Of a DNA stretch of 64,000 nucleotides, positions 389-21,257 are shown piece by piece. The DNA is from Ahrensia kielensis DSM 5890 (GTDB lineage Bacteria > Pseudomonadota > Alphaproteobacteria > Rhizobiales > Rhizobiaceae). Each line of letters opens with the position of its first letter. The stretch's first letter is position 1. The notes below the pieces were generated by a model. That model was not told the origin of the DNA. It did not search any database and saw only the letters and a list, made by a program, of their open reading frames with translations. The DNA lies in contig NZ_KB894529.1 of assembly GCF_000374465.1 (NCBI RefSeq), positions 62,001-126,000 of the forward strand, written 5' to 3'. Position numbers and translations under genes: made by a program.

Positions 389-994
389 TTATGCTTTTGT
401 AACGGCGGTTAATCCAACCGACCCCATAACCATGCCAACGTATAAATCTTCAATTTTCTGCTGAGACAGGCGTCCGCCCGAGCGATACCAAGTATTGACA
501 CCTGTCAGCATCGCTAGAATTGCCATCGCGGCCACATGGGGATCAGAAGCACTGAACGTGCCCTCATCGGCTCCATGCCTTAAAATTGTTTTGGCTATAT
601 TCTCGTAAGTGTGGCGCTTACGTTCGATAATTCGAAATCCCTGATCTTCCAGAGAGCGCAGTTCCATATAAGATAGGAAAACTTCGTCGGGCCTGCTGAT
701 ATGATAGCGGATGTGGAAGCGAACAAAACGTTCAAGCGCTGCCGCAGCATCTTCGTCGCGCACTTCATTATTCCAAGCTTCCAGCAACGAATCCATATGG
801 TTATTTAATAGGGCGACCAGAATTTCCTGCTTGTTGGGATAATGCTGATAAATCGCACTTGCTTGCACACCAACAGCCGCAGCTATCTGGCGCATTGAAA
901 CTGCCGCATACCCAAAACGTGCGAACAATTTGCACGCTTGTGTGAGTATTGCTTCTGCAGTGATACTTCCAACTGAACCGACTTTACGCGCCAT
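389..994 (-). CDS. TetR/AcrR family transcriptional regulator
   Basis: About 201 residues. The N-terminal helix-turn-helix is clear (EAILTQACKLFARFGYAAVS, then MRQIAAAVGVQASAIYQHYPNK), followed by a helical ligand-binding domain without a recognisable ligand signature. The ATG at 994 is preferred over an in-frame GTG at 1006. A palindrome centred on AACGTT lies just upstream (1008-1029) and looks like its own operator. The gene lies directly before isovaleryl-CoA dehydrogenase, so it may control leucine/acyl-CoA catabolism in response to an acyl-CoA. That role is inferred from context only. Confidence 0.85.
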   Translation of the reverse strand: MARKVGSVGSITAEAILTQACKLFARFGYAAVSMRQIAAAVGVQASAIYQHYPNKQEILVALLNNHMDSLLEAWNNEVRDEDAAAALERFVRFHIRYHISRPDEVFLSYMELRSLEDQGFRIIERKRHTYENIAKTILRHGADEGTFSASDPHVAAMAILAMLTGVNTWYRSGGRLSQQKIEDLYVGMVMGSVGLTAVTKA

Positions 995-1007
995 TGTAAA
1001 ATCCACA

Positions 1008-1093: not shown

Positions 1094-2359
1094 CTAGCGC
1101 ATATCCACGATGACTTTGCCGTCATCAATCATTGTACCGCGATCAACCAAAGTCACTTTTGTTTTGACATGGCAAATTTCACGAAACAGGTTTGAAATCT
1201 TTTCAATCGCAGCCGCCTCACCGGTCGCTGTGAGCTGGTTTTCCATTTCACAAAACAACATGATGTCGTCTTTCTCATTGTCGCGATCAATCACCAGCCT
1301 CACACGTTGAAGCCCATCAATTGATTGGCACAAATGATTCAATTGTGTCGGGCGAACAAACATGCCTCTGACTTTCGATGTCTGGTCCGCGCGTCCAAGC
1401 CATCCAGCAAGCACCGGCCCTGTTCGCTCACCAATGGCAGCGCTTCGGTCTTCAGGTTGAATAAACGAAGAAAGATCGCCCGTACCAAAGCGGATGAGCG
1501 GATAATCTTCGCGCAATGTCGTGACAACAACCTCGCCCACAGCGCCAAATGGCATTGCTGCACCTGTTTCAGGATCAACGATTTCAACGATCACATCTTC
1601 ATCGACAATCAGCTGACCGCTTGTATCGACTTCATAACCAATCAAACCAAGCTCAGCCGTCGCATAGCACTGGCGCACATTTACATTCGACTTTTCAAAA
1701 AACTCGCGCAAACCCGGCGTTAAAGCACCGCCGCTCACAATCGCTTTTTTAATTGGAACTGGACCACGATCTGCAGCTTGGCAGGCTTCCAGTAATGTTT
1801 TCAGAAAGTCTGGCGTACCTGCGTAAGCGACAGCGCCATATTGGAAAATTGCAGTAATTTGTTGCTCTAACTGTGCATTGCCAGCTGGAATGACGGAACA
1901 ACCAATTGAGCGAGCGCCCGAATCAAAAATCCATGCACCGGGCGTCAAATGATAAGAAAAAGTATTGTGAACAATATCACCGGCCTCAAAGCCAGCAGCT
2001 ATCATTGCACGGGACGCACGCCAAAATTCAGGCTTCATAAAGCCCGGCTCATGAATGGGACCAGGCGAAACAAATAAATAATCAGCAATTGTGCCATCAG
2101 CAACGATGCCGCCAAATGGCGCCTCATTGCGCTGGATCGCAATCAAATCTTCTTTTCTTAAAATAGGAAGATTTTGCAAGTCGTCCCACGCAGCAACTGG
2201 CTTCTTGCCGCTATAAGCACGGGCGTAATATTTATTATCAGCCAATGTCGATAATTTTGACGTAAGTGCACTGAATTGAGAAGCGCGTCTTTCTTCTTGC
2301 GTTTGATACTCGCGCGGATCATCCACATCCATGGGCAGCACTTTTCTGAACGGTTCCAT
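1094..2359 (-). CDS. Phenylacetate-CoA ligase family protein (AMP-forming)
   Basis: 421 residues, the usual length of PaaK-like adenylate-forming ligases, which activate a carboxylic (often aromatic) acid to its CoA thioester. Recognisable segments are SPGPIHEPGF in the nucleotide-loop region, YAGTPDFL, IVSGGALTPGLREFFE, CYATAELGLIGYE (A5-like), and IRFGTGDLS near the C-terminal hinge. It is the last gene of the operon livG - acyl-CoA synthetase - livH - livM - livK - livF - ligase, 9 bases after livF. The substrate is unknown. Co-transcription with a LIV-type importer suggests that it activates the imported acid. Confidence 0.8.
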   Translation of the reverse strand: MEPFRKVLPMDVDDPREYQTQEERRASQFSALTSKLSTLADNKYYARAYSGKKPVAAWDDLQNLPILRKEDLIAIQRNEAPFGGIVADGTIADYLFVSPGPIHEPGFMKPEFWRASRAMIAAGFEAGDIVHNTFSYHLTPGAWIFDSGARSIGCSVIPAGNAQLEQQITAIFQYGAVAYAGTPDFLKTLLEACQAADRGPVPIKKAIVSGGALTPGLREFFEKSNVNVRQCYATAELGLIGYEVDTSGQLIVDEDVIVEIVDPETGAAMPFGAVGEVVVTTLREDYPLIRFGTGDLSSFIQPEDRSAAIGERTGPVLAGWLGRADQTSKVRGMFVRPTQLNHLCQSIDGLQRVRLVIDRDNEKDDIMLFCEMENQLTATGEAAAIEKISNLFREICHVKTKVTLVDRGTMIDDGKVIVDMR

Positions 2360-2368
2360 GATTTTTCC

Positions 2369-3205
2369 TTAAAGCCACCGCTTGCGACGCTTGAATGATT
2401 TTATGTTTTTGAAGCTTTTGCGTTCGCCGCTACCGCCGAGATAGAATTCTTTGATATCTTCGTTCTCGCGCAATTCAGCCGCCGTGCCATCAAGCACAAC
2501 CTTGCCGTTCTCCATGATATATCCATGGGATGCGCAGCTGAGTGCCATTGCCGCATTTTGTTCAACGAGCAAAATTGTTACGCCGAAATCACGATTAAGT
2601 TTCTTAATGATGCCAAAGACTTCTTTGACCAGAAGCGGCGACAAGCCCATCGATGGCTCGTCCATTAAAATAAGTTTCGGGCGGGCCATCATAGCGCGGC
2701 CAATGGCTAGCATTTGCTGCTCGCCGCCAGATAGATATCCGGCCAATCCAGTGCGCTCTTTCAAGCGTGGAAAATAAGAATAAACAAGATCAATATCGTC
2801 AGCAATATTGGCGCGATCTTTGCGTGTGAAAGCGCCCAATTTAAGATTTTCTAGCGCGGTCATATCCTGAATGATACGGCGGCCTTCCATAACCTGCGAA
2901 ACACCAGCGCGCACTGTTGTATCTGGCTCTTGATTGCTGATTATCTGGCCATCAAACTTGATATCGCCGCGCGTAATTTTACCATCTTCAGACTTTAACA
3001 AACCGCTGATTGCTTTTAGTGTGGTGGACTTTCCAGCGCCGTTAGCGCCGAGCAAGGCGGTAATTGAACCGCGCTGAACTTCTAAGCTCAAACCACGAAG
3101 CACGAGCACATATTCATTATAGACAACCTCAATGTTGTCGACTGCCAATAAGATATCATTTTCCATGGCTACTGCTTTCTTGGGCTCAGTGGCGACCTGT
3201 AGCAT
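2369..3205 (-). CDS. livF: LIV-type ABC transporter ATP-binding protein (LivF-like)
   Basis: 278-residue ATPase of the branched-chain amino-acid/organic-acid (HAAT) importer family. Walker A GANGAGKST is at about 53-61, the signature LSGGEQQMLAIGRAM at about 159, and Walker B LILMDEPSMGLSP follows. The basic C-terminal tail ends RRKRWL. The ATG at 3205 has a GGAG 9 bases upstream; a second ATG lies 13 codons in. It follows livK after a strong hairpin and precedes the ligase. It pairs with the LivG-like ATPase at the front of the operon. Confidence 0.88.
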   Translation of the reverse strand: MLQVATEPKKAVAMENDILLAVDNIEVVYNEYVLVLRGLSLEVQRGSITALLGANGAGKSTTLKAISGLLKSEDGKITRGDIKFDGQIISNQEPDTTVRAGVSQVMEGRRIIQDMTALENLKLGAFTRKDRANIADDIDLVYSYFPRLKERTGLAGYLSGGEQQMLAIGRAMMARPKLILMDEPSMGLSPLLVKEVFGIIKKLNRDFGVTILLVEQNAAMALSCASHGYIMENGKVVLDGTAAELRENEDIKEFYLGGSGERKSFKNIKSFKRRKRWL

Positions 3206-3234
3206 TTCGCTTGCTCCGGGTTGTAAGAAGGTAT

Positions 3235-3257
3235 TGCGGCCGGATGATCCGGCCGCA
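3235..3257 (-). terminator. Hairpin between livK and livF (attenuator or mRNA stabiliser)
   Basis: GC-rich perfect inverted repeat TGCGGCCGGAT-G-ATCCGGCCGCA, about 10 bases after the livK stop. There is no U-run behind it in the transcript sense, so it looks more like a 3'-end stabiliser that raises binding-protein expression than a full terminator. Confidence 0.6.
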
Positions 3258-3267
3258 GATCGATATT

Positions 3268-4515
3268 TTAGTAACCAATCCAGTCATCACGACGTGGAAG
3301 CTCAACCGTAGAAATTTTCTCGATTTGCACCTTGCCGTCGATCAAAGAACCTTTGTTCACAGATACAGTTGTTGTGCCGCGATGGTCTTTTTCAGTCCAT
3401 GTTGATGGCTCACATACGCCTTCCAAACCAACTGGAACCCAGTCCGTTTTTGCGTACATGCCGTTGCGAATATTTTCGCCCGTTAAACCACCATTGGCTT
3501 TCGCCCACTCCATTGCCTCTTTCATATAAAAGGCACTACAAACGCCGCGAATGTAATGGTGTGTTGGTTTTTGAGATTTATCGGAAGTACCTTCCTCATA
3601 CATCTTTCTGACCAAATCCATACCCGGTGCATCCGCTTCCCAGAATGGAGATGCTGTTGGGAAAATATAATCTACAGCACCAGATGCTTCGACGGTCAAA
3701 TAGTCACCGCCCCAAATATTGGCCATGTAAGTGACATCCGCACCAACGGTCTTACAAGACTTCAAAAGCGAGACAACAGAGCCGCCGAGGTTCGCCACGA
3801 AAGCATAGTTTGCACCAGAGTCTTTGATGGTTAGGCACTGCGCTTTAAAGTCACCGGGGGCCATAGGCACCACGATTGGGTTAAGCACTTCAAGTCCAAG
3901 CTCCGTAGCATATTCTGCACATGCTTCTTTGGGTGCATTTGGATAAGGGTGGTTATCACCTAGATGCACAAATTTAGGGTTTCCAAGGCCCTTTTCCTCA
4001 GCATCAGTCTTTGCCCACTGAACCATTGCACGGCATGCATCTGAATAGCTTGGGCCGTAGAAAAAGTTATACGGCGCAGGCTTTGTTGTTTTTGGGTTGA
4101 TGCCCGTCGGATCGGTCAGGTGCCCTGAATAAGAAGCGGACCAAGTTGGGATTTTGTCTTTCGCAACAAAAGAGATAAGGGCTTCGGTATCGCCTGTACC
4201 CCAACCTTGTAATCCGACCATCTTGCCATTGGATGTCCAGCGTTTGTATGTCGCAATCGCTTGCGGCACTTTATAAGCATAGTCGATTTGTTCTAGCTCA
4301 ATCGTCGTACCATCAATACCGCCATTTCGATTGATGTACTCAACTGCATCCTTGATGCCTGGGCCGTAAAACTTGCTAACGAAAGCCGTTGGTCCAGTAT
4401 AGTCAACCAAATTGCCGACAAAGATACTGTCTGGCTCGCTTTGCGCATAGGCAACAACACCGCCCAACATTGTAACTGATGCAAGACCAGCCATTATAAA
4501 TGAAAACTTTTTCAA
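3268..4515 (-). CDS. livK: LIV-type ABC transporter substrate-binding protein
   Basis: 415-residue periplasmic binding protein (Peripla_BP_6 class). Signal peptide at residues 1-24 (MKKFSFIMAGLASVTMLGG, cleavage after AYA). The mature part opens with IFVGNLVDYTGPTAFVSKFYGPGIKDAVEYIN, written here as IFVGNLVDYTGP and VSKFYGPGIKDAVEYIN, the normal start of this fold. The length and the adjacent acyl-CoA ligases resemble carboxylate-linked LIV operons rather than an amino-acid system; the ligand cannot be read from sequence. It lies between livM (66 bases upstream) and livF, with a hairpin directly downstream. Confidence 0.85.
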   Translation of the reverse strand: MKKFSFIMAGLASVTMLGGVVAYAQSEPDSIFVGNLVDYTGPTAFVSKFYGPGIKDAVEYINRNGGIDGTTIELEQIDYAYKVPQAIATYKRWTSNGKMVGLQGWGTGDTEALISFVAKDKIPTWSASYSGHLTDPTGINPKTTKPAPYNFFYGPSYSDACRAMVQWAKTDAEEKGLGNPKFVHLGDNHPYPNAPKEACAEYATELGLEVLNPIVVPMAPGDFKAQCLTIKDSGANYAFVANLGGSVVSLLKSCKTVGADVTYMANIWGGDYLTVEASGAVDYIFPTASPFWEADAPGMDLVRKMYEEGTSDKSQKPTHHYIRGVCSAFYMKEAMEWAKANGGLTGENIRNGMYAKTDWVPVGLEGVCEPSTWTEKDHRGTTTVSVNKGSLIDGKVQIEKISTVELPRRDDWIGY

Positions 4516-4580
4516 GATATCCTCCCATTATGCATTTAGGTGGCAACGACTCTCCCAAGCAGCCGCCGGTGAAATCCGTT

Positions 4581-5651
4581 TTAATAAGAGAACGGATATA
4601 GCTTTATCGATTTGCGGATTTGACCAATGCGATGCGCGATCCCCTCCGGTTCGAAAATCAAGAATAAAATAATGACGGTACCGACCGTGATCTGCTCGAC
4701 ATATGATTTGCCGTTTTCAATTATCCCAAAGACTGATGGTCCAACCGAGATCAGAAAACCGCTAATGATTTGAACAAGTTGCGGCAAGAGTTCGATAAAC
4801 ATCGCACCAAGGAATGCGCCTGGCACCGAGCCAAGCCCACCGATGATAATCATCGCCAAGAAGTTGATAGAAAGAGCAATTGAGAAAGTTTCAACCGACA
4901 CAAATTCGATGTAATGCGCATAAAGTGCGCCAGCCACGCCTGCAAAAAACGACGAGATACCAAAGGCCAAAATACGATATTTTGTAAGGTTGATGCCCAT
5001 GATTTCAGCAGAAAGATAATGATCGCGTACCGCAACAAGCGCGCGGCCATCACGCGAGCGTTTTAGGTTGGCAACCGTAATCATCGAAATGACCGCCCAA
5101 GCCAGCACAACATAGAAATATTTCTCATCCGTATCGAGCGGAATACCGAAGAAATCCGGCTTTGATGCATCGACACCATAACCATTGGTGAACCAAGTGG
5201 CGCGAGAAAAGAAATCGACCAGAATAAACTGTGATGCCAGCGTTGCAATGGCGAGATACAGCCCTTTAATACGCGCTGCCGGTAGGCCAAAAACCATACC
5301 CACGATTGCCGTCATGACACCCGCAAGTGGGATAGCAATCAGGACAGGAACACCATAATTATTGGCCAAATAGGCCGATGAGAATGCGCCAAAGCCATAG
5401 AACGCCGCATGGCCCAAACTAATCTGTCCGGTCATGCCGACAAGGACATTAAGGCCCAGTGCAGAAATACCAGAGATACCGACAAGAATAAGCAAGTTAA
5501 CAACGTAGCTGCTCATCAAAACAGGAGCCAAAATCATCACAACAAGCGCGACAGCGGCAGTCCAGCCGATCACCTTAGTCTGAAATAAATATTGGTCTGT
5601 TTTATATGTTGTTCGGAAGTCACCGCATGGGCGAAGTGCTGTCGATCCCAT
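4581..5651 (-). CDS. livM: LIV-type ABC transporter permease (LivM-like)
   Basis: 356-residue inner-membrane permease with about 9-10 hydrophobic segments. The family block GISALGLNVLVGMTGQISLGH is present as GISALGLNVLVG followed by MTGQISLGHAAFYGFGAF, and the coupling region contains GALYAHYIEFVSVETF and AMIIIGGLGSVPGAFLGA. The start codon lies 2 bases after the livH stop, so translation is tightly coupled. It forms the channel with LivH. Confidence 0.87.
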   Translation of the reverse strand: MGSTALRPCGDFRTTYKTDQYLFQTKVIGWTAAVALVVMILAPVLMSSYVVNLLILVGISGISALGLNVLVGMTGQISLGHAAFYGFGAFSSAYLANNYGVPVLIAIPLAGVMTAIVGMVFGLPAARIKGLYLAIATLASQFILVDFFSRATWFTNGYGVDASKPDFFGIPLDTDEKYFYVVLAWAVISMITVANLKRSRDGRALVAVRDHYLSAEIMGINLTKYRILAFGISSFFAGVAGALYAHYIEFVSVETFSIALSINFLAMIIIGGLGSVPGAFLGAMFIELLPQLVQIISGFLISVGPSVFGIIENGKSYVEQITVGTVIILFLIFEPEGIAHRIGQIRKSIKLYPFSY

Positions 5652-5653
5652 GA

Positions 5654-6547
5654 TCAGATCCTCTCAATGTCGCGGGTGCCAAACAGGCCGTAAGGCTTGA
5701 TGACCAAAATGATGATTAGGACGTAGAACGGCGCGATAGTGTAGAGATTGCCCCACTGCAGATATTGGCCATCTACAAACTCGGCAAAGTTTTCCAACAA
5801 GCCGATAATGACGCCGCCAACGATAGCGCCAACAATGGAATCCAGCCCGCCGACAATAACGGCTGGAAACACTTTGATACCAATCACGGCAAGCGATGAA
5901 GACACGCCGCTGACGATGCCAATAATGATGCCAGCAATGCCAGAGACAACCGCTGAGATTGCCCAGCTCATGGCAAACACCTGCCCAACAGAAACGCCAA
6001 GACTTTGGGCCGCTTGTTGATCATAGGCGGTCGCGCGCATCGCAAGGCCGTATTTTGAGTATTGGAAAAAAGCGTAGAATAGCGCCATCACGAAGAAGGA
6101 GAGAACCAAGCTCATGATGTAAGCTGTTTCGACTTGCAGCCCGAACAGAGATACGTTTTCAACGGGGAATATCTGCGGGAAGCTGGCGCTTGAATTTCCG
6201 AAAGTCCAATTCAAAACCGACTGCATGATAATCGACAGAGCGATTGTCACCATGATGATCGAAATGATCGGTTCGCCGATCAATGGCCTCAAAATTACCG
6301 TCTGTATAAGGATGCCGAAGATGGTCATAAAAACCAGCGTAAACGGAAAAGCGACATAGAATGGCAGTCCAGCTTTAACGACCATCGCTAGACAAACCCA
6401 TGCACCCAGAACCAAAAATTCGCCCTGTGCAAAGTTTACAACCTGCGTGGATTTGTAGATCAATACAAAACACATGGCGACAACGCCATAGAGCATGCCA
6501 ACGATCAATCCATTTGCCAGTAATTGTGTGAGAAGAAACCAGTTCAT
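5654..6547 (-). CDS. livH: LIV-type ABC transporter permease (LivH-like)
   Basis: 297-residue permease with eight or so membrane segments. The N-terminal LLANGLIVGMLYGVVAMCFV and FAQGEFLVLGAW, and the C-terminal AVIVGGLDSIVGAIVGG, are standard LivH blocks. It sits 9 bases downstream of the acyl-CoA synthetase stop and 2 bases upstream of livM. An acyl-CoA synthetase gene inserted between livG and livH shows that uptake and CoA activation are expressed together. Confidence 0.87.
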   Translation of the reverse strand: MNWFLLTQLLANGLIVGMLYGVVAMCFVLIYKSTQVVNFAQGEFLVLGAWVCLAMVVKAGLPFYVAFPFTLVFMTIFGILIQTVILRPLIGEPIISIIMVTIALSIIMQSVLNWTFGNSSASFPQIFPVENVSLFGLQVETAYIMSLVLSFFVMALFYAFFQYSKYGLAMRATAYDQQAAQSLGVSVGQVFAMSWAISAVVSGIAGIIIGIVSGVSSSLAVIGIKVFPAVIVGGLDSIVGAIVGGVIIGLLENFAEFVDGQYLQWGNLYTIAPFYVLIIILVIKPYGLFGTRDIERI

Positions 6548-6556
6548 GTTATTCTC

Positions 6557-8494
6557 CTATTCCGCGGCTACAGGCAGAACAGGCACATCCTGACCAGGCA
6601 AGTCGCGAACGGCTATAACGGTCTGGATGCGCTGCTGGGAGCCATCTTGGAAGGTGATCATCGTGTCGATATCGACATATCCTTTGTCCGAATAAATCGT
6701 ATCGATAATGTCAGCGTATTTTTCAGCAACGACAGAGCGTCGCACTTTGCGGGTTCGCGTAAGCTCACCGTCATCGGCATCAAGTTCTTTATAAAGCAGA
6801 ACAAATTTCTTGATCTGCTGCGCTTCGGGAAGCGTTTTGTTGATTTCGGTGATTTCCTTTTCAATCAATTCATACACTTCAGGTCGAGACGATAAGTCAG
6901 TGTATGTGGTAAAGGAAATACGTCGTTTCTCGGCCCATTTAGCCAAGATCGAATAGCGAATGCAGACGATTGCCGCCAAATGATCGCGCCCTGCCCCTAA
7001 GATTACAGCTTCGCCGATATAAGGACAGAATTTCAATTTGTTCTCGATGAATTGCGGCGAGAACCTCAAACCGCTTTTCATTTCGGCAAGATCCACGATG
7101 CGGTCAATCACGACGAGGTGGCCGTTTTCATTGAAGTAACCTGCATCACCCGTGAGCATCCAGCCGTCGACAATGTCCTTCTTGGATGCTTCTTCATTAT
7201 TGTAATATCCAAGGAACATATTGTTGTGACGGGTAATTATCTCACCGATGCCTTCAGCATCTGGGTCTTTGATTTCAACTTTGACTTCGTCGGTAAACGG
7301 CACGCCTACCGTGTCAAAATCAACATCGCCTTGCTTATGAATTGTATAAGCGCCCAAGAGTTCCGTCTGGCCGTAAAGCTGGCGCAGAGGAACGCCCATT
7401 GCGAGGAAGAACTTGAATGTATCAGGCCCAAGTGCTGCGCCGCCCGTCGCAGCCGATGTCACACGGCTGAGGCCAAGACGGTCTTTTAGCGCATTGAATA
7501 AACATAGTCTTGCGCTGGCAGACGTTCTGCCTGCCTCAAACGCATTGATGCCGCGTTTGGAAAAATAATCATACAGCACACGATTGATCCATGATGAATC
7601 CATCATCCGCGCGCGCACGGTAGCAACGATATCTTCCCAGACCCTTGGCGCGAAAAGCACGAAGGTTGGGCCGATCTCACGCATGTCCGACATTGATGTT
7701 TCTGGAGACTCAACAAAGTTGACCGTCATGCGCGAAATAAGCGACATGCCCACCGCATAAATTTGCTCCATGATCCAAGGCATAGGCAACGTGGACACAT
7801 ATTCGTCCATGTGAGTTTTCGGGTCGACGGTTAGATAATCATGACAGTGATCAATAACACTGCGCGCTGACAACATCGCAAGCTTCGGGTTGGATGTCGT
7901 GCCCGATGTGGCGCAAAGAATGGCGACATCATCACCGTTCGAGTTTGCGACGAGCGTATCATAGAGTGATTGATCTTTGGCATGAAGCGCATCGCCCATC
8001 TGGCGCAAATCTTCTAATTGCAGCAAACGCGGGTCTTCATATTTGCGCATACCGCGCGGGTCTTCAAAGATGATTTTTTCAATCGTCGGACATTCATCCG
8101 CAAGGTTCAAAAACTTGTCGACCTGCTCTTCATCTTCAGCGAACACAAAGCGTGTACCTGCATAATTAATCAGATAAGCAAGCTCCTGCTCCATCAGGTC
8201 ACGGTAAAGGCCAAGCGTGCAAGCACCGCATGCTTGCGCAGCAACTTCACCCGCAACCCAGTCAGGGCGGTTGTCGCCAATAATACCAACAACATCGCCT
8301 TTTTTAATGCCAAGCTTGGTAAGCCCCAGCGCAATGCGGCGCACATTATTGTTGTAGTCTGCCCATGTTTGAGAGACCCAAATACCGAAAGTCTTTTCTC
8401 TTAAAGCTGTCTCGCTTGGAAAATTCTTTGCATTATTAGCAAGCAATTTCGGCAACGTGTTGAGGCCATCCCCTTTGGTGGAAATTTTGCTCAT
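6557..8494 (-). CDS. Long-chain-type acyl-CoA synthetase (AMP-binding)
   Basis: 645-residue adenylate-forming enzyme of the FadD/bubblegum-like type. The P-loop reads ATSGTTSNPKLAML, where most relatives have a glycine and KGAM at the corresponding places. Other motifs are YGQTELLGAY (A5), TGDAGYFNENG (A7) and VVIDRIVD (A8). The C-terminal catalytic lysine region around LTRTRKVRR is present. Its start shares one base with the livG stop (TAATG), so it belongs to the transporter operon. The substrate is probably the imported carboxylate; chain length cannot be told. Confidence 0.82.
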   Translation of the reverse strand: MSKISTKGDGLNTLPKLLANNAKNFPSETALREKTFGIWVSQTWADYNNNVRRIALGLTKLGIKKGDVVGIIGDNRPDWVAGEVAAQACGACTLGLYRDLMEQELAYLINYAGTRFVFAEDEEQVDKFLNLADECPTIEKIIFEDPRGMRKYEDPRLLQLEDLRQMGDALHAKDQSLYDTLVANSNGDDVAILCATSGTTSNPKLAMLSARSVIDHCHDYLTVDPKTHMDEYVSTLPMPWIMEQIYAVGMSLISRMTVNFVESPETSMSDMREIGPTFVLFAPRVWEDIVATVRARMMDSSWINRVLYDYFSKRGINAFEAGRTSASARLCLFNALKDRLGLSRVTSAATGGAALGPDTFKFFLAMGVPLRQLYGQTELLGAYTIHKQGDVDFDTVGVPFTDEVKVEIKDPDAEGIGEIITRHNNMFLGYYNNEEASKKDIVDGWMLTGDAGYFNENGHLVVIDRIVDLAEMKSGLRFSPQFIENKLKFCPYIGEAVILGAGRDHLAAIVCIRYSILAKWAEKRRISFTTYTDLSSRPEVYELIEKEITEINKTLPEAQQIKKFVLLYKELDADDGELTRTRKVRRSVVAEKYADIIDTIYSDKGYVDIDTMITFQDGSQQRIQTVIAVRDLPGQDVPVLPVAAE

Positions 8495-9294
8495 TATGCC
8501 ACCTCTTTTTGCGAAGCGGTTTCAGGCTCATCGTCAAAGTCAGCACCGAGATAGGCCTTTTGAACATGATCATTCGCCATGACTTCTTCAGGCAAACCGT
8601 CACAAACTTTCGAACCAAAATCTAAAACCATCACACGGTCAGAGATATCCATAACAACACCCATGTCATGCTCAATCATGATAACAGTCATGCCGAGCTC
8701 CTGATTGAGATCGACAACGAAACGGGCCATGTCCTCTTTTTCTTCCATATTCATGCCAGCCATTGGCTCATCAAGAAGAACAAGTTTTGGGCCCAGAGCG
8801 ATTGCTCGCGCCAGCTCAACACGCTTACGCAAGCCGTATGACAAGGTGCCAGCCTGTGCATTGCGAATGTGCTGAATTTCAAGGAAGTCGATAATGTCTT
8901 CTACATGGCGGCGATGCTCTAGCTCTTCCTTTTGAGCGCCAAACCAATAGGCCATACCGGTTAGAAAATTGTTTTTCAAAAGGTGGTGACGACCAACCAT
9001 AATATTGTCGAGCACGGTCATATGATCGAAAAGCGCAAGGTTTTGAAATGTGCGCCCAATGCCTATTTCTGGTCGCTCACTTGTCTTGCGACCAAGCAGT
9101 TCTTCACCAGCAAATTTGATAGACCCTTTATCGGGCGAATAACGTCCTGATATGCAATTTAGCATAGACGTTTTACCTGCCCCATTGGGGCCAATTATGG
9201 AAAATAGTTCAGCTTCTTTGACAGAAAAACAAACATTCTGAAGTGCTTTAATACCGCCAAATGACAAACTGATATCGTCAACCTGCAAGAGCAT
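8494..9294 (-). CDS. livG: LIV-type ABC transporter ATP-binding protein (LivG-like)
   Basis: 266 residues from the ATG at 9294, chosen because GGGAGG lies 10 bases upstream; an in-frame start at 9345 lacks such support and would run into the promoter. Walker A IIGPNGAGKTS, the LivG-type signature LSYGLRKRVELARAI, Walker B LVLLDEPMAGM and switch histidine MIEHDMGVV are all intact. It is the first gene of the operon. Its upstream region contains the 76-nt segment repeated near mmsA. Confidence 0.88.
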   Translation of the reverse strand: MLLQVDDISLSFGGIKALQNVCFSVKEAELFSIIGPNGAGKTSMLNCISGRYSPDKGSIKFAGEELLGRKTSERPEIGIGRTFQNLALFDHMTVLDNIMVGRHHLLKNNFLTGMAYWFGAQKEELEHRRHVEDIIDFLEIQHIRNAQAGTLSYGLRKRVELARAIALGPKLVLLDEPMAGMNMEEKEDMARFVVDLNQELGMTVIMIEHDMGVVMDISDRVMVLDFGSKVCDGLPEEVMANDHVQKAYLGADFDDEPETASQKEVA

Positions 9295-9300: not shown

Positions 9301-9376
9301 AAGTCCTCCCAAACTTTCATCTGTAATACTCAAGTAACATTGCACAAGAATTTCAGGAATATTGCGAAATGTTGCA
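9301..9376 (-). promoter_or_regulatory. livG promoter/operator segment, copy 1 of a duplicated element
   Basis: This 76-nt stretch aligns without gaps to 19621-19696, with about 57 identities. The best block (9346-9376) matches at 28 of 31 positions. In transcript sense it carries tandem 10-bp repeats TGCAACATTT and CGCAATATTC followed by TGAAATTCTT, then an AT-rich stretch and the livG ribosome binding site GGGAGGAC. It probably contains the promoter and a regulator site, but the regulator is not known. Confidence 0.6.
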
Positions 9377-9460
9377 GTTTAAAAAACTGCTCTACAAACG
9401 AGGTATTTTCCATGTAAGTGTGGCATCTTATGAATGGCATCTCAAAGGAGTTTCAAACAC

Positions 9461-11467
9461 GTGCGCGCTGAGGATTCAAAAAAAGCACGGGATTTGGCGG
9501 CTGAAAACCTTGTCGTTCAACAAGGCATACAACTCATTCAGCAAGCGCTTTCTATTTTTGACAGTGACATGAAATTGTTGGTTTATAATCAACGGTTTCT
9601 GGAAATGTTTGACCTTCCAGAAGAGTTGATTTTCCCTGGACTTTCGTTCTTGGATTTGACTTTATTTTTAGCACGTAGAGGTGAATTCGGTCCCGGCGAT
9701 CCTACCGAATTAGCGCATGACCGTGTGGAGCGCGCAAGCCGATTTGAAGCGCACTACTTCGAACGTTCGCGTCCCAATAATCGCAGAATTTCTGTTGAAG
9801 GACACCCGCTTGAAGATGGTGGCTGGGTTACAATCTATTCCGACATTACGGAGGCTTGGCGCAATGAACAGGTGCTGCGGGCGCGAAGCGACGAACTCTC
9901 CGATAAATTGCTTCGCCGTACAGGACAATTATCCGAGACAAACCGTACATTAGAAGCAACAAACCGTGCATTGTTGAAGGCAAAATCTGAGCTTGAAATT
10001 TCAGAGAATCGTATACGGGCCATAACGCGCGCTGTACCAGCGCATATTGCTTATATTGATACGACCTTCACCTATCAATTTTCCAACAATCGCTTCTCTA
10101 GCGTCATGGGCATTGATCGTCATGACCTTGTTGGCAAAACAATATCTGGGGTATTTCCAAAGCGAATTGCCAATTTAATCATACCGCAGTTGAAAGCCGC
10201 CTTTGCTGGCAAAACTGTGACTTTTAGTTATGAGGTTGAGAACGTAAAAGGCGAGATACAATCTGTGCGCACGACGTTCTCACCGGATTTTGGAAAGTCT
10301 GGCGTGGCACAAGGTGCGTTCGTTCAATCGCTTAATGTTTCCGCTGAAATGGCGGCTACTGAAATTCAATTACGCGCCAAACGACTGGAAACAACCAATC
10401 AGCTGACAAGCGGTATGGCCCATGATTTTTCGAATATTCTCACTGTTATTTTGGGTAATCTTGAACGCCTTGGCAAACATGTCGACGAACCACATAGAGA
10501 GCTTTTGCGTTCGACTGAACAGGCGGCACGGCGCGGAACGCGTATCATCGATAATTTGATGTCCTATGTGTTTAGTCAAAAACTGGATTCAAAAGCCACG
10601 AACATTTCGAGACTGCTTCGTGATCTTATCCGTCTATTTGCCTCTTCTTTGTCTAATTCGATTTCCATACAGCTCGACATTGAGACCGAAGATATAGTCT
10701 TGCAGTTAGATGAGGGTGCCTTCCAAGATGCCCTCCTCAATTTGCTGTTTAATGCGCGCGATGCAATTGAAACGCACGACGGCGAAGGCGTTATCACTGT
10801 CACAGCTAGATTAGAGAGTTCTGCAAATCAGCAAGCTGGTATTTTGATCTCTGTCAGCGATACAGGACAGGGCTTTTCTCAAGATGCTATTTTAAAAGGA
10901 ACCGAACCGTTTTTCACAACCAAACCTCAGGGCAAAGGCACAGGTTTAGGGCTTTCAATGGTTCATGGATTTCTTGAACAATCAGGCGGATGGCTTCAGC
11001 TAAAAAATGGCACAAATGGCGGTGGGCAAGTTGACTTATACATTCCCATAGAGCGCGCGGAGCAATCCAATACTGCGCTTGACCAGCCCCATTTTGAAAC
11101 CGAAGGACACCTCATTCTGATTGTTGATGATGATCCAGAAATGCGCACACTCATTCGTAATTATCTTGGTGATTTGGGATTGCCCTGTCTGGAGGCAGAC
11201 GGGGCAGAAGAAGCGCTGACGCTTGTTAAACAAGTTGCGGAAATTACCGGCGTTATTAGCGATATTATTATGCCGGGCACATTAACAGGTGTCGACTTAG
11301 CCGCTCAATGGAGGCAGTATCACCCAGAGCTGGCAGTCTTACTAATAAGTGGTTTGCCGCGCCAACATAAATTGCTGCAATCCGCACGCGAAAACCACAC
11401 AATACTGCGCAAGCCATTTGATAAAGATGTATTCAAACAAACCCTTATAAACGTTCTCACGAGTTAG
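9461..11467 (+). CDS. Soluble PAS hybrid sensor histidine kinase with receiver domain
   Basis: 668 residues. GTG at 9461 is taken as start because AAAGGAG lies 10 bases upstream; an ATG 27 bases earlier has no such site. No membrane segments are seen, so it should be cytoplasmic. Order of parts: PAS_7-like N-terminus (LLVYNQRFLEMFDLPEEL), coiled coil near 130-185, second PAS (AVPAHIAYIDTTFTYQFSN), HisKA with phospho-acceptor in GMAHDFSNILTVILGN, HATPase (LLNLLFNARDA, SVSDTGQGFS, GKGTGLGLSMVHG), and a C-terminal receiver with DDDPEM, VISDIIMPG and LRKPF. It pairs with the next gene and is divergent from the LIV operon. Confidence 0.87.
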   Translation: MRAEDSKKARDLAAENLVVQQGIQLIQQALSIFDSDMKLLVYNQRFLEMFDLPEELIFPGLSFLDLTLFLARRGEFGPGDPTELAHDRVERASRFEAHYFERSRPNNRRISVEGHPLEDGGWVTIYSDITEAWRNEQVLRARSDELSDKLLRRTGQLSETNRTLEATNRALLKAKSELEISENRIRAITRAVPAHIAYIDTTFTYQFSNNRFSSVMGIDRHDLVGKTISGVFPKRIANLIIPQLKAAFAGKTVTFSYEVENVKGEIQSVRTTFSPDFGKSGVAQGAFVQSLNVSAEMAATEIQLRAKRLETTNQLTSGMAHDFSNILTVILGNLERLGKHVDEPHRELLRSTEQAARRGTRIIDNLMSYVFSQKLDSKATNISRLLRDLIRLFASSLSNSISIQLDIETEDIVLQLDEGAFQDALLNLLFNARDAIETHDGEGVITVTARLESSANQQAGILISVSDTGQGFSQDAILKGTEPFFTTKPQGKGTGLGLSMVHGFLEQSGGWLQLKNGTNGGGQVDLYIPIERAEQSNTALDQPHFETEGHLILIVDDDPEMRTLIRNYLGDLGLPCLEADGAEEALTLVKQVAEITGVISDIIMPGTLTGVDLAAQWRQYHPELAVLLISGLPRQHKLLQSARENHTILRKPFDKDVFKQTLINVLTS

Positions 11468-11481: not shown

Positions 11482-12213
11482 ATGACAAATCCAGCCGAAG
11501 GCAAGATTGCAATCATAGAGGACGATCCAGATATTGCAGCGAACATACAAATCGCTTTGATGGACTATGGTTTCGACTGCAAAATCTTTTCAAGTGCCGC
11601 GCAATTTTATGCCAATATCAATGATATGAAACCGGATTTATGCTTGGTCGATCTTGGCCTGCCAGATCAGAACGGCCTTGATGTAATCAAGAAACTGAAT
11701 GAGAGTGGCAATATTGCGAGCATCATCATATCCGGAAGGCGTGCTTTAACGGATAAAATCGTGGGTCTGGAAATGGGCGCCGATGATTATATTTCCAAGC
11801 CATTTGAGACAGCTGAATTGGTCGCCCGTGTGAGAACTGTTATGCGGCGGGTCAGCAAAACCCGCCATACGAATGATAAGGCCCGCCAACCATCCAAAGC
11901 CAAATTCGATAATTGGACCCTCGATATGGTCAATTACACATTGGCTCATCAAGATGGGACCAGTACACAATTGAGCATGGCCGAAATGGACATTATGAAA
12001 ATGTTTCTTGAGGGAACGAACCGTCTTTTCTCGCGTGCCCAGATTTTAGATAATCTAAAACTTGATCCAGACCAGAATTTTGACCGCTCTATAGATGTGC
12101 GTATTTCGCGTTTGCGAACAAAGCTATGCGAAAGCACGCAAGCACCCAAATTTATTAAAACCGTTTATGGCGGCGGCTATATGTTTGTCGCCAATGTTGA
12201 ATGGGTGACGTGA
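11482..12213 (+). CDS. OmpR/PhoB-type response regulator
   Basis: 243 residues. The receiver domain spans about 8-120, with acidic pocket EDD (14-16), phospho-acceptor Asp57 in CLVDLGLPDQNG, switch serine in IIISGRR and lysine in ISKPFE. The C-terminal winged helix (about 145-238) contains LSMAEMDIMKMFLEG, FSRAQILDNL, RSIDVRISRLRTKL and IKTVYGGGYMFVA. It starts 14 bases after the hybrid kinase and is probably its partner. Its stop lies 2 bases from the stop of the convergent Nudix gene, leaving no room for a terminator between them. Confidence 0.88.
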   Translation: MTNPAEGKIAIIEDDPDIAANIQIALMDYGFDCKIFSSAAQFYANINDMKPDLCLVDLGLPDQNGLDVIKKLNESGNIASIIISGRRALTDKIVGLEMGADDYISKPFETAELVARVRTVMRRVSKTRHTNDKARQPSKAKFDNWTLDMVNYTLAHQDGTSTQLSMAEMDIMKMFLEGTNRLFSRAQILDNLKLDPDQNFDRSIDVRISRLRTKLCESTQAPKFIKTVYGGGYMFVANVEWVT

Positions 12214-12960: not shown

Positions 12961-14136
12961 TTAGCGTTCGATGGCGATGGACATTCCCTCACCGCCGCCA
13001 ATGCAAATGGATGCGATACCGCGCTTTAGACCTCGGTCTTCCAGCGCGTTCAAAAGTGTAACGATAATGCGTGCGCCCGATGCACCAATTGGATGTCCAA
13101 GTGCACAGGCACCACCGTTCACATTCATCTTTTCATGCGCGATAGAAAAGTGCTGCATGAACACCATAGGCACAACAGCAAAGGCTTCGTTAACCTCCCA
13201 CAGATCAACATCCTCAACAGACCATCCGATTTTTTTCAGCAAGTTTTCCGTTGCGCCAATAGGTGCCGTGGTAAACCATTGCGGTTCGCGTGCATGGGAA
13301 GCATGGCCGATAATTCGTGCGCGCGCAGTAAGGCCTTGCGTCTTTGCTTCTTCTGCGCTTGTTAAAACAATCGCAGCTGCCCCATCAGAAATTGACGATG
13401 CATTTGCTGCCGTAACCGTACCGTCTTTATCAAAAGCAGGTTTTAACTGACGAATTTTTTCTGGCCGTGCTTTTTGTGGTTGCTCGTCGTCAATATATTC
13501 TATTTCGCCACTGCGAGATTTAACAACAACCTTCGCGATCTCTCGCGTAAATTTACCTGAAGTCTGTGCCTCTTGCGCACGGCTTAAAGATGCCAGTGCA
13601 TAATCATCCTGTGCTTCACGCGTCAGTTGATATTTGGAGGCGCACATCTCGGCAAACTTGCCCATCAGCGCCCCTTTTTCATAGGCATCCTCCAACCCAT
13701 CAAAAAACATATGATCGATAAGCTGGGTATGACCGAGCCGCGCACCATTGCGACTGTTCAAGGATAGATATGGTGCTCTGGTCATGCTTTCCATACCGCC
13801 AGCCACGATAGTTTTCGCTGTGCCTGCAGCGATTTGATCGCAGCCCAAGGCAACAGCCTTCATGCCTGAACCACATACTTTGCTAATCGCTGTACATGGT
13901 ACATCAAGCGGAATATTTGCAGCGATGCTTGCTTGGCGTGCCGGTGCCTGACCGACGCCAGCAGGCAAAACAATGCCCATCAAAACCTCATCAATATGGC
14001 TGGCAGAAAGTTTGCTTTCTTCCAGTGCAGCAGCAATAGCAATGCCGCCAAGTTCAGGCGCGCTCACGGTTCCAAGAGCACCTTGAAATCCGCCCATTGG
14101 TGTGCGCTTTGCGCCCGCGATAACAACATCGGCCAT
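12961..14136 (-). CDS. Acetyl-CoA acetyltransferase (thiolase)
   Basis: 391 residues, standard biosynthetic/degradative thiolase length. The nucleophile is Cys88 in SKVCGSGMKAV. His348 lies in CALGHPIGASGAR and the second catalytic cysteine, Cys378, in SICIGGGEGMSIA. The enzyme interconverts two acetyl-CoA and acetoacetyl-CoA; here it probably ends leucine/ketone-body or fatty-acid breakdown. The enoyl-CoA hydratase stop is 9 bases upstream of its ATG, and the Nudix gene follows after 4 bases. Sequence does not separate an AtoB from a PhaA role. Confidence 0.9.
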   Translation of the reverse strand: MADVVIAGAKRTPMGGFQGALGTVSAPELGGIAIAAALEESKLSASHIDEVLMGIVLPAGVGQAPARQASIAANIPLDVPCTAISKVCGSGMKAVALGCDQIAAGTAKTIVAGGMESMTRAPYLSLNSRNGARLGHTQLIDHMFFDGLEDAYEKGALMGKFAEMCASKYQLTREAQDDYALASLSRAQEAQTSGKFTREIAKVVVKSRSGEIEYIDDEQPQKARPEKIRQLKPAFDKDGTVTAANASSISDGAAAIVLTSAEEAKTQGLTARARIIGHASHAREPQWFTTAPIGATENLLKKIGWSVEDVDLWEVNEAFAVVPMVFMQHFSIAHEKMNVNGGACALGHPIGASGARIIVTLLNALEDRGLKRGIASICIGGGEGMSIAIER

Positions 14137-14145
14137 TGTGATTTC

Positions 14146-14916
14146 CTATCGTCCTTTAAACGCAGCTTTACGCTTTTCAGTAAAAGCTACCATGCCTTCG
14201 GATTGATCTTCTGTTGCAAACAATGAATGGAACACGCGCCGTTCAAAGAGAATGCCTTCTTGCAGGGAGGTTTCCAGCGCACGCTCCACACTCTCACGCG
14301 CTAGCAATGTAGATGCCTTACCAAAACCTGCGATTGTTTCAGCTATTTTGAGCGTCTCAGATACAAGCGTGTCATCGGGGAAAATACGTGCCACAAGATT
14401 GGCTTCCAAGGCTTCGGCAGCGTTCATCATCTTGCCGGTCAAAATCATATCCATGGATTTGACCTTGCCAACCAGCTTGGTCAAACGTTGCGACCCACCC
14501 ATACCTGGAATGACGCCGAGTTTAATTTCAGGCTGACCAAATTTTGCGCTTTCACTGCAATAAATAATATCGCACATCATCGCCAATTCGCAGCCACCAC
14601 CAAGTGCAAAGCCGGAAACTGCGGCAATTTTAGGCGTACGCAGCTTTGCAAAAGCATCCCATCCGGCAAAGAAATCCTCATGGAATACATCCATGTAATC
14701 CTTGTCAGACATTTCTTTAATATCGGCACCAGCGGCAAATGCTTTTGGTGATCCCGTTATAACAAAGCATCCGACATTTGGATCGCGGTCATACGGTTTT
14801 AGCTCCGTTGAAAGCTCATTCATCACTTGGCTGTTCAAAGCATTGAGTGCTTCTGGCCGATTAAGCGTGACGAGAACAACACGTCCTGTTTGTTCAATTT
14901 TGATGAGTTCAGGCAT
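14146..14916 (-). CDS. Enoyl-CoA hydratase (crotonase family)
   Basis: 256 residues. The start at 14916 is chosen for its GAGGAGAT site and the family N-terminus [21 protein letters not shown]. The oxyanion region [11 protein letters not shown], the first catalytic glutamate in [11 protein letters not shown] and the second in [13 protein letters not shown] are present, so true hydratase activity is expected. It overlaps the end of mmsB by 8 bases. In this operon it would hydrate methacrylyl-CoA (valine) or other short enoyl-CoAs. Confidence 0.88.
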
Positions 14917-15790
14917 CGAAATCTCCTCGTCCAGCTGATTTGAAATGTTCGAGCGCTGCAGAGAAATCTCGCCCACGGCCGTTTGCATCAACAAATTTTT
15001 GATAAAAGCCAGCTGCCCGTGCGCCCATTGGCGTGTCCGCATTCACAAGCTCTGCAGCTGATTGAGACAGCAACAAATCTTTAAGCATCAGCTCGGCAGC
15101 AAAGCCCGGTTTGTAATCATTATCCGCAGGGCTTTGAGGCCCGACACCCGGCTCTGGACAATAAGTATTGACTGACCAACATGAGCCTGAAGATGTCGAT
15201 ACAACATCAAATAATTTTTGAGGGTCAAGCGATAGTTTTTCGCCAAGAGCAAACGCTTCACAAACACCGATCATCGAGATGCCAAGGATCATATTGTTAC
15301 ATATTTTTGCCGCTTGCCCTGCACCGCCCTCACCGCAATGGACAATTTTTCCGCCCATTATATCAAGCAGTGGTTTTGCCATATCAAATGCGTTCTGACT
15401 GCCACCAGCCATGAAGGTCAAACTGCCAGCTTGCGCACCACCGACACCGCCCGACACGGGCGCATCGACGCTCAATACGTTTTTAGAAGAACAAGCGACA
15501 TGCACAGCGCGCGCACTTTCAATATCAATTGTTGAACAATCAATCAGCACGCTCGATGCTGACATGAGCTCAAGCGCTTCGTTGCAAACATTTCTAACGA
15601 TCTGCCCATTTGGCAGCATCGTTATAACGCAATCCATATCGGTAACGGCCTCATTGATGGATTGAACCTGCTTTACACCTTCTGCCGTTGCACCTGCTGC
15701 ATCCAGACCAAAAACTTCATGTCCTGCCTTGGCGAGTTTGGTCGCCATGGGCGCGCCCATATTTCCAAGGCCAATAAAACCAATACGCAT
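14909..15790 (-). CDS. mmsB: 3-hydroxyisobutyrate dehydrogenase
   Basis: 293-residue NAD-dependent dehydrogenase that oxidises 3-hydroxyisobutyrate to methylmalonate semialdehyde in valine breakdown. The Rossmann motif is [13 protein letters not shown], the substrate loop [11 protein letters not shown], and the catalytic lysine lies in [13 protein letters not shown]. The ATG at 15790 is preferred to one at 15796 because of its spacing to GGAGGAA. It follows the hydrolase that makes its substrate by 14 bases. Confidence 0.9.
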
Positions 15791-15804
15791 AATCATTTCC
15801 TCCG

Positions 15805-16836
15805 TTAAAGCTTCAAAACGCCGCCTTCGGGCGCTCGAAGCATCGTGTGAACTTGTGCTATCGTGACGTCATTGATTGAAGCATGACGCCATTGTGGATT
15901 GCGGTCCTTGTCAATGACAGCGGCCCTAACTCCTTCGAGGAAATCACCGTACTGCATGGCGCGTGAGACAAAGCAGAACTCACGTTTAAGCGCTTCTTCA
16001 ATCCCCGGCGTGTCACGCGCTTGGCGCACAAGCTCAAATGTTACTTGGCACGATAAAGGTGAACCGCGTTCAATCTTTTCAACGGCATCTATTGCCCACT
16101 CAGATTGAGAAAGCTTTAGATCGCTCATCACATCTTCAATCCGCCCGCGTGAGAACACTTTACTGATTTCAGCTTGAATCGTTGATAATTCAGATTTTGA
16201 GGGCTTTTTGAACAGGCCTTCAATATCATCAAGATTACCGCTCTCGCAGAGCGTTCTTTTAATTTCGGCCAATGTATCGTTTGGTGCAAATTTATCTGCA
16301 AAACCACAGTAAATGGCATCTGCGCTATTCATGTGATAACCAGTTAGACCAAGATATTCACCAAGATAACCTGGCGCATGGGTCAATAGCGATGTTGTGC
16401 CCACATCCGGCACCAAGCCGATTGCACATTCTGGCAGTGCAATTTTTGTCTTTTCCGTCACGACACGGTTCGAGCAATGCGCAGATATGCCAACACCGCC
16501 GCCCATCACGATGCCATTCATAAATGCGATAATCGGTTTTGGATAACGGCTCATAAAGGCATTGAGACGGTATTCATCACGCCAGTATTTCTGGCCGCTG
16601 AAATAGTCCTGCTTCATACCTTGATTGTAAAGGTCAACGATATCGCCGCCCGCACAGAAAGCCGTTTCGCTTTCAGCGTCAATCATAACGCATTTTACTG
16701 TGTCGTCTTCGAGCCAGCTTTTCAAAGCAGTTTCGATTTTCAACACCATATCATGCGATAGTGCGTTGAGAGATTTTGGACGTGTTAGTGTAATATGACC
16801 AACTGGCCCTTTTTTGCGTATGGAAATATCGGACAC
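15805..16836 (-). CDS. 3-hydroxyisobutyryl-CoA hydrolase
   Basis: 343-residue crotonase-fold protein of the ECH_2/HIBCH type, longer than ordinary hydratases. Key blocks are LTRPKSLNALSHDMV, FCAGGDIVDLYNQG, GIVMGGGVGISAHC and LPECAIGLVPDVGTTSLL, the last carrying the catalytic acidic residues of the hydrolase. It releases 3-hydroxyisobutyrate from its CoA ester, the unusual hydrolytic step of valine breakdown. Its start is the base right after the dehydrogenase stop, and mmsB follows. Confidence 0.88.
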   Translation of the reverse strand: MSDISIRKKGPVGHITLTRPKSLNALSHDMVLKIETALKSWLEDDTVKCVMIDAESETAFCAGGDIVDLYNQGMKQDYFSGQKYWRDEYRLNAFMSRYPKPIIAFMNGIVMGGGVGISAHCSNRVVTEKTKIALPECAIGLVPDVGTTSLLTHAPGYLGEYLGLTGYHMNSADAIYCGFADKFAPNDTLAEIKRTLCESGNLDDIEGLFKKPSKSELSTIQAEISKVFSRGRIEDVMSDLKLSQSEWAIDAVEKIERGSPLSCQVTFELVRQARDTPGIEEALKREFCFVSRAMQYGDFLEGVRAAVIDKDRNPQWRHASINDVTIAQVHTMLRAPEGGVLKL

Positions 16837-17982
16837 TTATCTATTCTCTGCCATTAATGCGCGTGCAGTGATCATGGACATGATCTCATTGGTTCCCTCA
16901 AGGATTTTATGAACACGAAGATCACGCACGATTTTCTCAATGCCGTAATCTTCCAAATAACCGTAACCGCCATGGATTTGCAGCGCGTCATTGGCAACAT
17001 CAAAAGCAATGTCAGTAACAAAGCGTTTTGCCATAGCGCAAAATTTGGTTGCATCATGCGTTTTATTGTCTAGCTTCGATGCTGCTTTGAACAATAAAGC
17101 ACGCGCCGCCTGCATGCGCATTTCCATATCAGCCAAGCGGAATTGCAAAGATTGAAATTGATCAATCGTTTTGCCAAATGCTTTGCGTTCAGCTGCATAG
17201 GCTACAGATTTATCAAGCGCTGTTTGTGCACCGCCAAGCGCAGCAGCTGCAATATTCAAACGTCCGCCATCAAGACCAGACATCGCATAGCTGAAACCTT
17301 TGCCCTCATTGCCAAGTAAATTAGCGGCTGGAATGGCACAATCGTCAAATTGTACCTGCGTAGTGGGCTGCGCTTTCCAGCCCATCTTTTTCTCAAACGC
17401 TCCGAAGCTTAAACCTTCGGTCCCCGCTTCAACAAGCACCGTAGAAATGCCTTTGGGGCCATCTTCTCCCGTGCGGCACATAACAACATAAAGGTCTGAA
17501 TAGTTGCCGCCTGAAATGAACGCCTTTGTGCCGTTCAAAACATACTGCTCACCTTTTAGCTCAGCTTTTGTTCGAAGTGCTGCAGCATCCGAGCCTGATC
17601 CCGGTTCAGTGAGACAATAGGATGCAACCTTGTCAAAGCTACACAATTGCGGCAGCCAGTTTGTCTTCATTTCATCCGAACCATATTGGTCGATCATCCA
17701 TGCACACATATTGTGGATGGAAATGAATGCAGCAACGGCCGGGCAGGCCATCGAGAGTGCTTCAAAAACCAACACGGCATCTAGCCGCGTTAAGCCAGAA
17801 CCGCCATGTTCTTCAGACACGTAAATGCCAGCTAAACCCAACTCGCCAACCTGTTTTAACAGTGATCGAGGAATTGTGCCCTCATGCTCCCATTGAGACG
17901 CATAAGGCGCAATATGTTCTTCGCCAAAGGCTTTCGCCATGTCAAAAATTGCTTGTTGTTCTTCAGTGAACTCAAAGTTCAT
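16837..17982 (-). CDS. Isobutyryl-CoA dehydrogenase (acyl-CoA dehydrogenase)
   Basis: 381-residue flavin acyl-CoA dehydrogenase. Family signatures ASYCLTEPGSGSDAAALRT and QIHGGYGYLEDYGIEKIVRD are intact, and the C-terminal HKILEGTNEIMSMI holds the expected catalytic glutamate. Isobutyryl-CoA specificity is inferred from its position between mmsA and the HIBYL-CoA hydrolase, the usual valine-operon order. It begins 28 bases after the mmsA stop. Confidence 0.85.
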   Translation of the reverse strand: MNFEFTEEQQAIFDMAKAFGEEHIAPYASQWEHEGTIPRSLLKQVGELGLAGIYVSEEHGGSGLTRLDAVLVFEALSMACPAVAAFISIHNMCAWMIDQYGSDEMKTNWLPQLCSFDKVASYCLTEPGSGSDAAALRTKAELKGEQYVLNGTKAFISGGNYSDLYVVMCRTGEDGPKGISTVLVEAGTEGLSFGAFEKKMGWKAQPTTQVQFDDCAIPAANLLGNEGKGFSYAMSGLDGGRLNIAAAALGGAQTALDKSVAYAAERKAFGKTIDQFQSLQFRLADMEMRMQAARALLFKAASKLDNKTHDATKFCAMAKRFVTDIAFDVANDALQIHGGYGYLEDYGIEKIVRDLRVHKILEGTNEIMSMITARALMAENR

Positions 17983-19620: not shown

Positions 19621-19696
19621 ACGTCCTCCCAAACGTGCATATCGATTAGTAAATAAGTATTTCCAAAGAATTTCACGAATGTTGCGAAATATTGCA
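19621..19696 (-). promoter_or_regulatory. mmsA upstream segment, copy 2 of a duplicated promoter element
   Basis: Aligns without gaps to 9301-9376. In transcript sense it has TGCAATATTT and CGCAACATTC (10-bp tandem repeat) followed by TGAAATTCTT, and at the same offset a GGGAGGAC that resembles the livG ribosome binding site. Here no gene starts right after it; mmsA begins 108 bases downstream. An in-frame GTG sits only two bases after GGGAGG, too close for normal initiation. Confidence 0.6.
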
Positions 19697-21246: not shown

Positions 21247-21257
21247 GAATAGCGCCT

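Follow-up and report, generated by a model that had tools for sequence, protein, structure and literature searches.

The window analysed here, a stretch of 64,000 nucleotides of the Ahrensia kielensis DSM 5890 genome, contains a 76-nt segment in two copies, each upstream of a minus-strand operon. Copy A lies between livG and a histidine kinase gene, at the head of a LIV-type transporter operon that also encodes acyl-CoA ligases, and copy B lies between mmsA and a malonyl-CoA synthase gene, at the head of a valine catabolic operon; the initial annotation had likewise placed both copies before minus-strand acyl-CoA catabolic operons. Across the LIV region the order on the minus strand is TetR, PaaK-like ligase, LivF-, LivK-, LivM-, and LivH-like proteins, FadD11-like ligase, and LivG, with livK giving the weakest model score of the operon (20.4 bits). 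The features needed below are as follows.

389-1006, minus strand: TetR gene, preceding the PaaK-like ligase
1094-6547, minus strand: rest of the LIV operon, with livH-, livM-, livK-, and livF-like genes and the PaaK-like ligase (models below curated cut-offs); the solute-binding protein is encoded at 3268-4515
6557-8494, minus strand: FadD11-like acyl-CoA ligase (230.3 bits, curated cut-off of 950 not reached)
8494-9294, minus strand: livG-type ATPase, gene 1 of the LIV operon (LivG model, 253.4 bits, curated cut-off of 362 not reached)
9305-9310, minus strand: GGGAGG, likely ribosome-binding site of livG, 10 nt before the ATG at 9294
9323-9328, minus strand: proposed -10 element of copy A, TATTAC, at site positions 49 to 54 (putative function)
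9336-9343, minus strand: box 4 of copy A, with the conserved G at site position 34 and T at 41 (column conservation, 28 promoters)
9346-9376, minus strand: operator boxes 1 to 3 of copy A, LIV promoter (30.1 bits, rank 2 in the window; E = 3.7e-4 with model R1, see below)
9434-11467, plus strand: hybrid histidine kinase, PAS_7-PAS_4-HisKA-HATPase-REC (domain models)
11482-12213, plus strand: OmpR-family response regulator, REC and Trans_reg_C (domain models), proposed binder of both operators
12961-17982, minus strand: rest of the valine operon, with acyl-CoA dehydrogenase, 3-hydroxyisobutyryl-CoA hydrolase, 3-hydroxyisobutyrate dehydrogenase, enoyl-CoA hydratase, and thiolase following mmsA
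18011-19513, minus strand: mmsA, methylmalonate-semialdehyde dehydrogenase, gene 1 of the valine operon (TIGR01722, 623.3 bits, above cut-off)
19625-19630, minus strand: GGGAGG, proposed relic of a duplicated leader, 111 nt before mmsA and conserved in A. marina
19643-19648, minus strand: proposed -10 element of copy B, TAATCG, sharing the TA of copy A at site positions 49 and 50 (promoter alignment)
19656-19663, minus strand: box 4 of copy B (promoter alignment)
19666-19696, minus strand: operator boxes 1 to 3 of copy B, before the valine operon (top-ranked in the window at 30.1 bits; R1 E = 5.2e-4)

Copies A (9301-9376) and B (19621-19696) form a gap-free alignment with 57 of 76 identical bases, and with 28 of 31 in the core block, as first reported. 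Among ungapped same-strand pairs in the window (scored +1/-1.5), theirs is the strongest, at 29.5 versus 18.0 for the runner-up, while the best same-strand pair in each of eight random 64-kb sequences (order-1) reached only 16 to 18. Beyond the edges of the segment, identity drops to background (14/60 and 18/60 flank bases). Outside the boxes the copies agree at 29 of 45 bases, partly through a common ribosome-binding-site motif. A whole-genome search for the 31-bp block, allowing up to three mismatches, found copy A and copy B only. The short core TTGCGAAATRTTGCA, allowed two mismatches, has 37 matches compared with 13 for the reversed control, and two matches are perfect.

Alignment of 28 promoters resolves the operator into four tandem boxes of 10 to 11 bp, with strongly conserved G at positions 2, 12, 23, and 34, an A behind each, and T at positions 30 and 41. 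The tandem form of the 10-bp units noted initially is thus upheld, and their description as two units plus a tail gives way to four boxes across related promoters. Self-identity of the operator peaks at lags of 10 (0.458) and 11 (0.438), compared with 0.27 after shuffling. In eight of the 28 promoters, the direct-repeat score was matched by only 1 of 200 column shuffles, and inverted symmetry (0.52) was reached by 46 of 200, which is chance level. Read by eye, the repeat preceding the LIV operon in the promoters examined is of the type TGTTACAATTCGTAAGGATTG or TGCAACATTTCGCAATATTC, doubtful in one locus (L111). Farther downstream, the A at site position 50 is strongly conserved (1.60 bits, versus 0.35 for the T at 49) and is probably part of a -10 element spanning positions 49 to 54, as its second base. 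No sigma-70 consensus promoter was found at copy A (shuffles average 0.4) or at copy B (shuffles average 0.7), and since shuffles yield so few, this absence is weak evidence, fitting loosely with an activator-dependent promoter.

We built a matrix from 23 promoter sites, none from Ahrensia, which were picked by eye before the leave-one-out test; left out were a near-duplicate of L049 (L050), a locus without LIV neighbors (L056), the Ahrensia locus L045, and two loci (L047 and L055) from the same genomes as L101 and L102. With this matrix, copies B and A rank first and second in the window at 30.1 bits each, the next score being 9.6, and the top score in 60 random 64-kb sequences is 23.3. When each locus was left out in turn, the promoter site came out on top in all 23 loci, with the lowest score at L111 (3.9 bits). 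A more distant matrix of 11 sites, drawn from five “same class” genomes, four records of Rhodobacterales genera, and two unplaced bins, still places the copies first and second, narrowly (15.7 and 13.8 versus 12.0 for the next).

A sequence-only model of 22 sites (R1), from which L111 was dropped for its doubtful site, was then searched against 19 genomes, 18 carrying the kinase/regulator pair and one (G002) without it. At E ≤ 0.002, a site is found at the LIV promoter in 17 of the 18 pair-bearing genomes, 15 of which had supplied training sites. The exception is G126 (source of L111), in which the pair is present and R1 has no match at the LIV promoter. A second strong site was recovered in three genomes: G000 and G001, at mmsA (5.2e-4 and 9.5e-4), and G122 (6.3e-6). 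The last of these (L146:5014-5043, minus strand) lies about 4 kb beyond the valine operon and upstream of an open reading frame (L146:3617-4930) that we read by eye as an outer-membrane porin and for which Pfam, NCBIfam, and PDB returned no family. The wider regulon that had been anticipated, with sites at further valine, propionate, or leucine promoters, does not emerge, as the genome of the window holds only two sites at E ≤ 0.01. Five weaker matches (E, 0.108 to 0.74) are partial; the best of them (C7:25614-25631) was dismissed, lying inside a TRAP-permease-like gene (named by eye) on the opposite strand.

The two-component pair beside copy A consists of the kinase, which is without a strongly hydrophobic stretch (highest 19-residue hydropathy, 1.31), and the response regulator, whose receiver (PF00072, 82.7 bits) and DNA-binding (PF00486, 65.6 bits) domains both score over cut-off. 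A scan with the first 322 residues of the kinase returned 12 loci, and in 11 of them the kinase adjoins a LIV/FadD operon, with the regulator also present in 10 of the 11; the remaining locus (L054) ends too early to show it. These loci come from records of Ahrensia, Oricola, Thalassobius, Paenihalocynthiibacter, Albidovulum, Ruegeria, and Halocynthiibacter, from two alphaproteobacterial bins, and from one record labelled Granulosicoccus; in A. marina, the operon adjoining the pair has the same gene set as that of the window. Likewise, the pair adjoins the LIV operon in all 16 loci from the genome search, two of which (L101 and L102) come from Oricola genomes already covered by the 12-locus scan. 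In L099 to L102, the operon sits behind the regulator and is not divergent from the kinase, and the repeat still precedes the operon. The recognition helix of the window's regulator, DRSIDVRISRLR, varies very little among the linked regulators; that of L111 (DVHVMNLR), where the operator is also doubtful, diverges most, a single case. The helix is not diagnostic, since two regulators unlinked to the operator (L040 and L041) carry nearly the same one.

We queried 297 genomes of the family, with equal denominators, for kinase, operator, ScfR, and FadD. The kinase (E ≤ 1e-85) is present in 11 of 297 and the operator (E ≤ 0.002) in exactly the same 11, under stricter filters that lose weak matches; nine of these genomes had supplied training sites, so that G000 and G001 are the only independent positives. 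Two further partial operator matches (0.004 to 0.006) are compatible with chance at E ≤ 0.01 over 297 genomes. FadD homologues (E ≤ 1e-100) occur in 141 of 297 genomes, the 11 included, and ScfR in 277. Because the operator is found in 11 genomes and FadD in 141, the operator follows the regulator pair and not the transporter, and we reject the view that it simply belongs to the LIV operon. A comparison of 20 FadD loci, each spanning only 1.5 kb per side, agrees: sites score 29.6 to 41.3 bits in the seven loci with the kinase (E ≤ 1e-85), five of these being training sites, and at most 4.1 bits in the 13 without it at that threshold. In nine of the 13 site-less loci, FadD is 56 to 58% identical to that of the window, versus 37 to 40% in some site-bearing loci.

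Nine relatives (L160 to L168) have the LIV/FadD operon, with FadD at 56 to 58% identity, and are without the operator. In at least six of them, the corresponding position is occupied by a more distant kinase (38 to 42% identity over the part seen). These distant kinases may have a different operator of their own.

Judged from sequence, it is highly likely that both copies are operators of the adjacent OmpR-family regulator (11482-12213). The proposal that the LIV/ligase and valine operons share a regulator and a promoter layout is well supported by the matrix, the distribution, and the mmsA loci, and of the candidates named at the outset the adjacent kinase/regulator pair is the most likely. 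Granted the operator, the regulator probably activates both promoters, an expectation taken from promoter layout alone. The 76-nt segment would then be an activator-dependent promoter in which the regulator, once phosphorylated through the soluble hybrid kinase, would bind the four tandem boxes head-to-tail. The last box ends 7 to 8 bp upstream of the putative -10 element, so that the regulator would replace a good -35 hexamer. PhoB-type activators stand in for the -35 hexamer in this way, from boxes just upstream of the -10. The signal may be an intracellular compound derived from branched-acyl uptake.

The same operator could instead serve repression, with the regulator obstructing RNA polymerase at the two promoters; a repressor could also sit on boxes 3 and 4, which would span the region from -35 to about -20. 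We consider this unlikely, as the tandem boxes immediately before the -10 resemble the PhoB layout and the absence of a sigma-70 consensus at either copy, weak evidence as it is, would be expected if an activator were needed.

The second copy has a narrower distribution than the first. In 17 of the 19 genomes searched with R1 (G371 and G266 were left out), the operator occurs within 600 bases upstream of mmsA in 2 of 28 loci, both of Ahrensia (30.1 and 29.4 bits; the next is 9.1). Among 15 orthologous mmsA genes (at least 71% identity), a LysR-type gene lies within 1.5 kb in 11; the four loci without a nearby LysR are the two from Ahrensia, L070, and L081. The nearest remaining LysR is 38% identical in A. 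kielensis and 37% identical in A. marina, beside another mmsA paralogue. In five relatives (L097, L098, and L113 to L115), a LysR-type gene is divergent from mmsA, with TTGTGCA/TGCACAA-like half-sites between them (by eye). This divergent gene is likely the valine-operon regulator in those relatives. A third genome marked Ahrensia (G002, 81% complete) yielded neither the kinase nor this mmsA orthologue.

In both Ahrensia species, copy B retains all 19 site positions of at least 1.29 bits and deviates at position 6 (1.18 bits). The leader GTTTGGGAGGAC is equally spaced in copies A and B and lies 4 nt farther away in L096, the closest non-Ahrensia relative. The common spacing to GGGAGG noted initially holds for both copies, with a likely role as ribosome-binding site confined to copy A; in copy B the motif is not the ribosome-binding site of mmsA, being 111 nt from its ATG (19513). 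It is conserved in both Ahrensia species despite this distance. A leader peptide behind it is unsupported, as the reading frames differ between the two species (by eye).

Given the operator, copy B very probably arose in the Ahrensia lineage when the LIV promoter was duplicated in front of the valine operon. Copy A would be the ancestral LIV-operon promoter, from which promoter and leader would have been duplicated in this lineage, bringing the valine operon under the same switch, and the LysR gene typical of orthologous mmsA operons would have been lost. It is also conceivable, though improbable, that the boxes of copy B evolved in place by convergence: OmpR-type sites can appear through point mutation, and GGGAGG leaders are common among these promoters. 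Such an origin would have to account for 76 gapless bases that include the leader at equal spacing without a ribosome-binding role in copy B, and for similarity that stops abruptly at both edges of the segment.

The readings in which an ScfR-family regulator or the TetR protein (389-1006) binds both copies can draw on both being encoded in the genome and on both operons handling acyl-CoA. Members of the ScfR family (PccR, RamB, and PrpR) control short-chain acyl-CoA metabolism, and both this family and TetR recognize palindromic sites. We regard these readings as barely tenable, since the operator is a direct repeat with inverted symmetry at chance level; in addition, ScfR, a candidate from the initial annotation, is rejected by its distribution, which does not follow the operator (277 versus 11 genomes), and TetR is disfavored by a motif-bearing locus (L046) with no TetR match in the interval from the PaaK-like gene to the gene next to it.

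In other genomes, too, valine genes are found close to this module. The distance between mmsA and the kinase is about 2 kb in G589 and about 4 kb in G060; in L102, mmsA immediately follows the PaaK-like gene; and in L103 an acyl-CoA dehydrogenase operon is directly behind the regulator gene. These neighborhoods are not all independent, because G589, G060, and G705 are assigned to a single genus, and in most other genomes searched mmsA is elsewhere, away from the two-component/LIV module. They lend support, short of proof, to the idea that what the transporter takes up is converted to isobutyryl-CoA or a related acyl-CoA. We give an even chance to the fuller scenario, in which a cassette of four-box operator, -10 element, and leader was copied about 10 kb, replacing LysR control, while relatives have joined valine genes to the same module by other means (L102 and L103). 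If true, this would mean that selection has repeatedly favored placing isobutyryl-CoA breakdown under the control of a single uptake signal.

The operators of TorR and RstA consist of 10-bp tandem boxes, those of RstA containing GTTACA, a sequence that the Rhodobacterales form of the present operator shares. The window's regulator, an OmpR-family protein of unassigned subfamily, is an equivalog of neither, scoring 164.9 bits with the TorR model (cut-off, 275) and 121.7 bits with the RstA model (cut-off, 330). Its operator resembles the pho box in having direct repeats of about 11 nt and in the last box lying near the putative -10. It differs from the PhoB system in box sequence, in having four boxes, in the soluble hybrid PAS kinase, and in targets belonging to acyl-CoA and valine metabolism and not to phosphate. 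One report states that all known OmpR/PhoB-family sites are direct repeats (PMC4832192), and another describes pho boxes as two direct repeats of about 11 nt bound by tandem response-regulator DNA-binding domains (PMC4415409). Where relatives have a LysR gene beside mmsA, by position the probable valine-operon regulator, Ahrensia has a two-component operator instead. The regulator is of a known kind, while this particular switch, together with its operator and the rewiring, seems not to have been described in the literature searched: the matches listed, from a search with most subscription journals outside it, hold no description of the switch or operator in the text they display, and those on promoter capture display nothing on this system. 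A conserved two-component system thereby gains a likely operator and target operons, an unassigned LIV transporter with two acyl-CoA ligases is tied to branched-chain acyl-CoA breakdown, and the two Ahrensia species offer a probable case of regulatory rewiring by promoter duplication.

Just beyond the window start (L148, G000:C2:50001-62100), a leucine-type catabolic operon with acyl-CoA dehydrogenase, carboxylase subunits, HMG-CoA lyase, and enoyl-CoA hydratase adjoins the TetR and LIV genes. On the far side of copy B, a minus-strand malonate cluster (19741-25507) encodes malonyl-CoA synthase, malonyl-CoA decarboxylase, and a DctMQP TRAP transporter; a GntR-type regulator is encoded on the opposite strand (25484-26239). 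The cluster is followed on the plus strand by an omptin-family outer-membrane protease (26548-27507; PF01278, 133.2 bits).
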